From: Chloroflexota bacterium
GTDB taxonomy: Bacteria; Chloroflexota; Dehalococcoidia; DSTF01; JACRBR01
Direction of reading: 5' to 3'
DNA: 32,306 nucleotides
Assembly (NCBI GenBank): GCA_016213125.1
Contig: JACRBR010000195.1
Location: forward strand, 1-32,306
Part shown: piece by piece, positions 26,078 through 28,326 of the stretch
Layout: every line of letters starts with the position of its first letter
How positions within the stretch are numbered: position 1 is the first letter of the stretch
Program-made: the position numbers and the translations under genes
The notes under the pieces: model-generated
Told to the model about the DNA's origin: nothing
What the model saw: only the letters and a program-made list of their open reading frames with translations
The model's database searches: none

Positions 26078-26107
26078 TTGACGAACAAACGTTTGTTTGA
26101 GTATGAT
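26078..26107 (+). promoter_or_regulatory. Sigma70-type promoter TTGACG-N18-TATGAT with palindromic operator AACAAACGTTTGTT (26084..26097) in the spacer
   Basis: Direct reading; perfect 14-bp palindrome between the -35 and -10 elements. Confidence 0.75.
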
Positions 26108-26114
26108 CGCCGCC

Positions 26115-26759
26115 ATGGTCGCCACCCTAACTGGAACGCCACCGCTAGAATCCACCACCCGCGACGCGATCCTGGATGCCTCCGAGCGTCGGTTCGCCGA
26201 AGCAGGTTTCGATGGCGCGTCGACCAGGGAAATCGCCGCTGACGTCGGCCTGAAAAACCAGGCCAGCCTCTATCACTACTTCGAGAACAAGCAGGCAATC
26301 TACGAAGCCGTGCTCAAGCGCGGTGTGGAGTCTCTGCTCGCCGTCATCGCGGACAACGGCCGCGCTGGCGCTCTGCGCGAGTCCGAGGGCGCAGCCCGTG
26401 GCGAACATCTCGCCGCGTACCTGGATCGCACCTTCGACTACCTTGTCGCGCATCCCCACCTTGCCCGCCTGATCCAGCGCGCGTCCCTCGACGAGGGCGG
26501 TATCGCGCGCGAGATCGTCGCGCGCCTGGTGCAACCGCTCTTCGACGGTGGTGTGCGGCTGCTGCACGACGCGCAGGGTCCCTGGCCCGCCGCCGAACTA
26601 CCGCATGTGGCCGCGGGCCTCTATCACCTGATTTTCGGCTACTTCAGCGACATGGCGCTGTTGACCGCCGTCATGGACGACGACCCGGCGAGCGAGGCTT
26701 CCATCGCCCGCCAGCGCTCGTTCGTGCGCGCGGCCGTCGCCCGGCTGCTCACGAAATGA
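26115..26759 (+). CDS. TetR family transcriptional regulator
   Basis: TRDAILDASERRFAEAGFDGASTREIAADVGLKNQASLYHYFENKQAIYEAVL; ATG 7 nt after the -10. Confidence 0.9.
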   Translation: MVATLTGTPPLESTTRDAILDASERRFAEAGFDGASTREIAADVGLKNQASLYHYFENKQAIYEAVLKRGVESLLAVIADNGRAGALRESEGAARGEHLAAYLDRTFDYLVAHPHLARLIQRASLDEGGIAREIVARLVQPLFDGGVRLLHDAQGPWPAAELPHVAAGLYHLIFGYFSDMALLTAVMDDDPASEASIARQRSFVRAAVARLLTK

Positions 26760-26816
26760 ACGGCCAACACAATGCTCGAGGAACAACACCGCAGCTAACC
26801 GAATCGAGGAGCGACG

Positions 26817-28034
26817 ATGACCACGATCACCCTGGCCGACCTGTACAGCGCCGACACCTACGCGCGCGCGATGCCCCACGACACCTTCGATCTCTTGCGC
26901 CGTGACGAACCCGTGCACTGGCAGCCGGAGCCCCAGGGCCCGGGATACTGGGCGCTCACCCGCTACGAGGACATCGTGCAGGTGTCGTCGGACAACGAGC
27001 TGTTCTCGTCCGCACGCGGCGGCACCAACCTGGAGGACCTCGGCGACGATGCGCTCGCCATGATCCGCACGCTCCTCATCAATATGGATCCCCCGAAGCA
27101 CACGCAGTACCGCAAGCTGGTGGCGACCGGCTTCACGCCGAAGATGGTGCGCCAGCTCGAACCGCACGTGCGGCAAATTACGAAACAGATCGTCGACAGT
27201 GTCGCGTTGAAGGGCTCCTGCGACTTCGTGACCGACGTCGCCGCGCAGCTGCCGCTCGCTGTGATCTGCGAGATGATCGGTGTGCCAAAGGACGATCACC
27301 ACAAGATCTTCGACTGGAGCAATCGCCTGATCGGATTCGACGACCCGGAGTATCACACCTCGCCCGAGGACGGCCGCATCGCCGCGACCGAGATGTTCAT
27401 GTACGCGAACGCCATGGCGCAGGACCGCAAGGCGAGCCCGCGTGGCGACCTGGTGAGCGTCCTCATGCAGGCCGAGGTCGATGGCGACCGTCTGAGCGAA
27501 GCCGACTTTGACGGCTTCTTCATCGTCCTTGCGGTGGCGGGAAACGAGACCACCCGCAACCTCATCTCCGGCGCCATGCTCGCGCTGATCGAGAACCCGG
27601 AGCAGCGCCAGCGCCTCATCGCCGACCCGAAGCTGATGCCGACCGCGGTCGAGGAGTTCCTGCGCTACGTCTCACCGCTCATCTACTTCCGCCGCACGCT
27701 ACAGCGCGATGTCACGGTCGGGGGCCGCCTCCTCCACGAAGGTGACAAGGTGGCCATGTACTACCCCAGCGGCAACCGCGACGAAGCGGCGTTCGAGCAG
27801 CCGCACGCGTTCGATGTCGGGCGCTCCCCCAACGCCCACATGGCCTTCGGGGGCGGCGGGCCGCATTTCTGTTTGGGCGCCAGCCTCGCCCGTCTCGAGA
27901 TCCAGTGCATGTTTGAGGAGCTGCTGACGCGCCTGCCGGACATCGAGCTGGCGGGACCCGTCGACCGCCTGCGCTCGAACTTCATCAACGGCATCAAGCA
28001 CATGCCCGTCAAGTTCACGCCCGCACGCGCCTGA
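26817..28034 (+). CDS. Cytochrome P450
   Basis: VLAVAGNETTRNLISGAM (I-helix), FRRTLQRDVTVGG, FGGGGPHFCLGASLARLEI (heme Cys). Confidence 0.96.
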   Translation: MTTITLADLYSADTYARAMPHDTFDLLRRDEPVHWQPEPQGPGYWALTRYEDIVQVSSDNELFSSARGGTNLEDLGDDALAMIRTLLINMDPPKHTQYRKLVATGFTPKMVRQLEPHVRQITKQIVDSVALKGSCDFVTDVAAQLPLAVICEMIGVPKDDHHKIFDWSNRLIGFDDPEYHTSPEDGRIAATEMFMYANAMAQDRKASPRGDLVSVLMQAEVDGDRLSEADFDGFFIVLAVAGNETTRNLISGAMLALIENPEQRQRLIADPKLMPTAVEEFLRYVSPLIYFRRTLQRDVTVGGRLLHEGDKVAMYYPSGNRDEAAFEQPHAFDVGRSPNAHMAFGGGGPHFCLGASLARLEIQCMFEELLTRLPDIELAGPVDRLRSNFINGIKHMPVKFTPARA

Positions 28035-28170: not shown

Positions 28171-28326
28171 TCGCGTCGATGCACCGGCCATGTCTGGTCC
28201 GCCGCATACAGCTTCGGCCTATTGACACCCTTTCGGCGCGCTGGCTAGACTCGCCATGGCCGCCGGGGACCGCCGATCGTGGTCCGACACTACGGGAGGC
28301 GGCGTGTGCGGTAGGGCGGTGGTCTC

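Follow-up and report, generated by a model that had tools for sequence, protein, structure and literature searches.

The closest demonstrated system to the operon described here is acuR-acuI-dddL of Rhodobacter sphaeroides, governed by AcuR, a TetR-family regulator. Its transcription start was placed by 5'-RACE exactly at the acuR AUG, operator mutations derepress the operon, and the genes behind acuR are translated at higher levels than acuR itself (PMC3017554). The tetR gene of Tn1721 is cited in the same paper as encoding a TetR-family repressor translated from mRNA without a 5' leader (PMC3017554). In bacilli, fatR-cyp102A3 and bm3R1-CYP102 are autoregulated TetR–P450 operons with an 18-bp palindrome, and FatR has a single genomic target (PMC3814354). 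With respect to operator architecture, QacR-like regulators, which bind as two dimers, use overlapping palindromes with a 4-bp gap between half-sites, compared with 3 bp for TetR-like regulators binding as a single dimer (PMC6018408). Finally, a survey of bacterial genomes detected a TA-like signal about 12 bp before the start, which was read as leaderless (PMC3160421).

The DNA analysed here (the window) is a stretch of 32,306 nucleotides from a Chloroflexota bacterium, contig JACRBR010000195.1. It contains a TetR-family gene and, 57 nt behind its stop codon (26760-26816), the ATG of a cytochrome P450 gene (Table 1); this arrangement, proposed earlier from the letters alone, is confirmed by the sequence and by the PF00440 and PF00067 matches. 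The original prediction of TTGACG-N18-TATGAT-CGCCGCC-ATG with AACAAACGTTTGTT in the spacer is likewise correct to the base. The interpretation that we consider very likely is that the tetR–P450 operon has a single leaderless promoter and that TetR, bound in the spacer of this promoter, represses its own synthesis until it is released by a ligand.

Table 1. Features of the tetR–P450 operon and its promoter (window coordinates)
Feature	Position	Strand	Basis
-35 hexamer TTGACG	26078..26083	+	Direct reading and promoter scan; TTGACA in 4/4 relatives
Probable TetR operator, 18 bp CGAACAAACGTTTGTTTG	26082..26099	.	Predicted; block conserved in 5 genomes, single-copy motif
Perfect 14-bp core palindrome AACAAACGTTTGTT	26084..26097	.	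Direct reading
CAAAC-N4-GTTTG half-site pair	26086..26099	.	Kept in 5/5 genomes, including divergent G002
TGAG between core palindrome and -10	26098-26101		Direct reading
-10 hexamer TATGAT	26102..26107	+	Direct reading and promoter scan; TACGAT, TACTAT or weaker forms in relatives
CGCCGCC between -10 and ATG (7 nt)	26108-26114		Direct reading
tetR ATG, predicted transcription start within a few bases	26115..26117	+	Inferred; -10 distance on the leaderless peak, no Shine-Dalgarno
tetR, 214 aa, TetR/AcrR-family regulator	26115..26759	+	PF00440, 46.4 bits
P450 Shine-Dalgarno GAGGAG	26806..26811	+	Direct reading; equivalent in 4/4 relatives
Cytochrome P450, 405 aa, CYP125-like	26817..28034	+	PF00067, 84.7 bits

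The 14-bp palindrome alone proves nothing, and as evidence by itself it was rejected, because the window holds five perfect palindromes of at least 14 bp and Markov-1 sequences hold a mean of 5.4. The arrangement around it is much rarer. The composite TTGACN-N17/18-TANNNT-N5..8-RTG occurs once in the window, where 0.017 occurrences are expected, and a promoter scan over 3 kb returned the tetR promoter, with its 18-nt spacer, as one of two sites, with 0.2 expected. Another in-frame ATG, at 26103, is an unlikely start, since it forms part of the -10 and the relatives do not have it. A second strong promoter-like site, TTGACA-18-TAGACT, is present at 28222-28258 and ends 4 nt before an ATG (28256), which opens just a 43-aa ORF located upstream of, and out of frame with, a DedA-like gene.

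Further evidence comes from related genomes. In a family set of eight genomes, including the window's own (G000), four others (G001-G004) carry a close tetR orthologue (55-68% identical), and the closest P450 orthologues (71-81% identical) are found in the same four genomes, each behind tetR. The corresponding promoters read TTGACAAACAAACGTTTGTTTGAG-TACGAT-CGCGC-ATG in G001, TTGACAAGCAAACGGTCGTTTGAT-TGGATC-AACGC-ATG in G002, TTGACAAACAAACGTTTGTTTGTG-TACTAT-CGCCC-ATG in G003 and TTGACAAACAAACGTTTGTTTGAT-TAGATC-CGGCC-ATG in G004; G002 and G004 have a weak -10, whether it is taken at 18 nt (TGGATC/TAGATC) or at 17 nt (TTGGAT/TTAGAT). Across the five genomes, pairwise identity averages 0.89 over the 24-nt block of -35 and operator (lowest pair 0.79), but 0.26-0.28 over four 24-nt blocks upstream of the promoter. 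The left-hand TTGA is kept without a matching mirror image on the right, so that the -35 seems to be conserved in its role as a promoter element and not just as a portion of the palindrome. Outside the family, the best matches are about 28-40% identical and are not orthologues.

The motif CAAACRWWYGTTTG is confined to the five genomes that carry this tetR; it lies at the tetR promoter, and G002 has one additional copy. It was not found in G005-G007, which are without a tetR orthologue, and G005 lacks it even with a 64% identical P450 kept. This distribution bears on the question of which regulator occupies the site. A different TetR paralogue could bind the palindrome while the linked TetR acts elsewhere, given that there are 19 TetR_N genes in G001 and seven in G004 and that linked regulators do not always act locally. 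However, the five of the eight genomes that have the motif are also the five with the tetR orthologue, and a paralogous tetR–P450 pair of G001 carries its own, different palindrome, AATCAATCGATTGATT; we therefore regard binding by another paralogue as extremely improbable.

Turning to the element that the linked TetR is predicted to recognise, the earlier placement of the palindrome between -35 and -10 holds for the 14-bp core, but the true symmetric element is longer: it begins at 26082 and so overlaps the -35 by 2 bp. It contains one mismatched pair in the window, G26083/T26098, due to G26083, the same base that gives a -35 of TTGACG instead of TTGACA. In G001, G003 and G004 the palindrome is CAAACAAACGTTTGTTTG or longer, and in G002 exact symmetry is lost and only CAAAC-N4-GTTTG remains, equivalent to 26086-26099. 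The predicted operator is built as a period-4 array, AAAC.AAAC|GTTT.GTTT, in which CAAAC-N4-GTTTG can be read in two registers offset by 4 bp in G001, G003 and G004, in one exact and one mismatched register in the window, and in one in G002. A similar array, AATC.AATC|GATT.GATT, makes up the palindrome of the paralogous pair in G001 (G001:C31:1-1952, L138; 42% and 35% identical), where it separates a TATTAT box from the tetR start. Because the 4-bp half-site gap and the overlapping palindromes are as in QacR-like regulators, and the paralogue's array is similar, it is a reasonable inference that the operator may consist of two overlapping dimer sites.

The main rival for this site is LexA. The Gram-positive LexA consensus is CGAACRNRYGTTYG-like, and CGAACAAACGTTTG (26082-26095) fits it; LexA, alone or alongside TetR, might thus bind in the spacer and make the operon inducible by DNA damage. 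Apparent SOS boxes are present in these genomes: TAGAACAAAYGTTTG-type sites precede SPL-like radical-SAM genes and a DUF5131-like gene (L189 = G000:C190:1974, L190, L182, L194, L195), TAGAACAGGCGTTTG precedes lexA (L196-L200), and at the recA loci (L208-L213) two sites, AGAACAAATGT and TAGAACAAACG, flank the promoter. The tetR operator resembles the TAGAACAAAYGTTTG boxes found before recA, lexA and SPL-like genes, and with a position weight matrix built from 26 SOS-type sites the window reaches 16.8, a score that falls in the range of these sites. On this matrix the tetR promoters of the window, G001 and G004 reach 14.5-16.8, but those of G003 and G002 only 9.8 and 1.2. GAAC is present in 26/26 sites, whereas the best register of every tetR promoter has AAAC, a test that is partly circular because the sites were registered on GAAC; among the tetR promoters, that of the window alone has a GAAC half-site, and in a weaker register (12.9). 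Moreover, conservation of the additional outer half-sites is seen at tetR alone, and a P450 operon is not known to be linked to DNA repair. LexA control is not favoured, and we assign it a very small probability.

With TetR retained as the preferred candidate for binding the operator, the genome scan that had been proposed for defining its regulon showed the motif to be essentially single-copy, and the predicted regulon is therefore the operon itself. CAAACNNNNGTTTG has one site in G000 and two unrelated sites in the relatives (G002:C13 and G004:C19), the former upstream of a molybdopterin-oxidoreductase-like gene that has a Shine-Dalgarno; a wide regulon was accordingly rejected. A two-mismatch site on G000:C190 was also dismissed as a second target, being the SOS-type box in front of an SPL-like radical-SAM gene, a box that G001, G002 and G004 have as well. 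On the same contig (L002:388-505), a tandem array of about a dozen CTGTTCCC-like units lies just behind an ORF.

Concerning the genes themselves, tetR and P450 overlap by ATGA in G001, G002 and G003, and there the overlap of stop and start makes the two genes one unit. In the window, where they do not overlap, a second promoter in the 57-nt gap is conceivable, although the promoter scan found none there. The best solved relative of the P450 is CYP125MRCA (8vxi; 553 bits, E 2.8e-165), followed by CYP124 (338 bits) and M. tuberculosis CYP125 (about 310 bits); judged by these closest relatives, the enzyme appears to belong to the CYP125 lineage. In mycobacteria, KstR, a TetR-family regulator, controls a CYP125; the operator of the tetR–P450 operon differs from that of the KstR system, and KstR was not matched when the window TetR was compared with solved structures at 1e-5. 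In the helix-turn-helix of the window TetR, at 26244-26275 (residues about 44-54), the turn GLKNQAS is one residue longer than the paralogue's GLNQAT, and, of the TetR genes in G001 and G004, only those of this orthologue group have a PF00440 match spanning 48 codons. A single-sequence AlphaFold model (pLDDT 53) was too poor for a fold search.

The earlier claim of a leaderless start gains support from the footprint in the relatives, from the contrast between a tetR without and a P450 with a Shine-Dalgarno, and from a genome-wide excess of -10 boxes at leaderless distance. The start codon follows the aligned -10 position by 5-7 nt in all five genomes (5 nt in the relatives). A Shine-Dalgarno is missing before tetR wherever tetR is the first gene, whereas the P450 has one in 5/5 genomes (GAGGAG, AAGGAG, AAGGAG, GGGGAGG, AAGGAG). 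The tetR ATG of G001 is the sole in-frame start between the operator's stop codon and the helix-turn-helix. G004 offers a natural exchange. A gene of 258 aa, whose glyoxalase-like match is weak (PF13468, 23.9 bits, under the cut-off), is inserted between promoter and tetR, with 5 nt separating the aligned -10 position from its ATG, and the now internal tetR overlaps the stop of the inserted gene and is preceded by GGGAGG. The missing Shine-Dalgarno is therefore tied to the position in the transcript and not to the tetR gene.

The genome-wide excess was measured on samples of 400 kb (G001), 280 kb (G004) and 138 kb (the window's genome), with genes called unlinked when not closely preceded by a co-directional gene. 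TANNNT at -11 to -14 precedes 46/237, 21/165 and 8/81 unlinked genes, respectively, but only 22/4449, 11/3331 and 5/1657 internal in-frame ATG/GTG codons; these rates, 10-19% versus 0.3-0.5%, are approximate because the gene caller was home-made. They make leaderless starts routine in the family. The box almost never occurs together with a Shine-Dalgarno, and with the first T of the -10 at -13 the window tetR sits on the genome-wide leaderless peak. It could still be argued that promoter and operator are real while transcription starts elsewhere, tetR having a short or longer leader and being translated without a Shine-Dalgarno; GC-rich genomes have many such leadered genes, and a simple test detects a Shine-Dalgarno in only about a third of the sampled genes. 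However, the -35, the spacer and the distance to the start have been kept as a set where everything upstream has diverged, and the distance from -10 to start matches the genome-wide peak. We judge a start elsewhere to be quite improbable and favour one at the tetR ATG, give or take a few bases.

A leaderless start as a habit of TetR genes is not supported, as about 4-5 of the 19 in G001 look leaderless, near the genome rate. Several individual cases were recorded. One more group of TetR orthologues (L142-L145; G004:C2, G002:C13, G003:C170, G001:C21), with 31-34% identity to the window TetR, shows in each genome TTGACA/T and, about 6 nt ahead of the start, a GATACT-like box, and looks leaderless. 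In two loci (L158, G001:C7:119190; L176, G004:C15:32442), a TetR gene has its GTG start immediately behind a GAATGAATATTCATTC palindrome that covers the -10 and resembles the Bacillus FadR operator. Another TetR gene (L173, G001:C9:4394) has TTGACC-N17-TAGAAT-7-ATG, and the palindrome TTGAGCAAATGCTCAA covers the start codon itself.

It is proposed that transcription from a sigma-70-type promoter begins on the A of the tetR ATG or no more than a few bases away; a start there would make the mRNA leaderless. TetR would be translated without a Shine-Dalgarno, presumably weakly, and the P450, on the same mRNA, from a good one. As one or two dimers, TetR would bind the 18-bp array between -35 and -10, overlapping the -35, exclude RNA polymerase and so repress its own operon. 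A ligand, perhaps the substrate of the P450 or a related steroid or lipid, would release it, which would make the operon substrate-responsive, as originally suggested. A steroid or branched-lipid inducer is a guess, based on the closeness of the P450 to CYP125MRCA, CYP124 and CYP125. A broader scheme, which we think unlikely, would be a promoter-operator-leaderless cassette whose first-gene slot is kept and whose occupant changes (the glyoxalase-like gene of G004), with the period-4 array serving two overlapping TetR dimers and leaderless starts setting a low repressor-to-enzyme ratio across the family; here, the A-to-G change at 26083 of the window, creating a GAAC half-site, might add a weak LexA contact. 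The proposed mechanism would give an uncultured lineage a one-operon switch with a defined operator and a predicted transcription start, which could serve as a compact sensor part when its ligand is identified. The roughly 10-19% of leaderless-looking unlinked genes in the family also matter for gene-start calling and expression design.

In the open-access literature, no leaderless TetR-P450 operon was found. The predicted operator resembles the two-dimer operators of QacR type in its overlapping palindromes and in the 4-bp gap between half-sites, cf. CAAAC-N4-GTTTG, but differs from them in sequence and total length (PMC6018408). Tn1721 tetR, in contrast to the tetR described here, is divergent from an efflux gene and is linked to no P450. 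As in fatR-cyp102A3, a TetR-family gene lies upstream of a P450 in one operon with an 18-bp palindrome and, by prediction, a single target. However, the FatR operator lies between transcription start and Shine-Dalgarno, the system is not leaderless, and it involves CYP102 and fatty-acid inducers, whereas here the predicted operator lies between -35 and -10 and the P450 is a 405-aa CYP125-like enzyme. With acuR-acuI-dddL the operon appears, on sequence grounds, to share the essential plan: a TetR gene first and without a Shine-Dalgarno, enzyme gene(s) downstream with one, a start-adjacent promoter, and a conserved inverted repeat overlapping it. The acuR system differs in its operator, TAATAGAC-n6-GTCTATTA, in its enzymes, in having acrylate as co-inducer and in its TetR subfamily, the AcuR model NF051457 giving the window TetR 19.6 bits against a cut-off of 247. 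Ligand-relieved autorepression is demonstrated for acuR-acuI-dddL and proposed from sequence for the tetR–P450 operon, which would thereby join a type of compact on/off switch that has been described in other bacteria.
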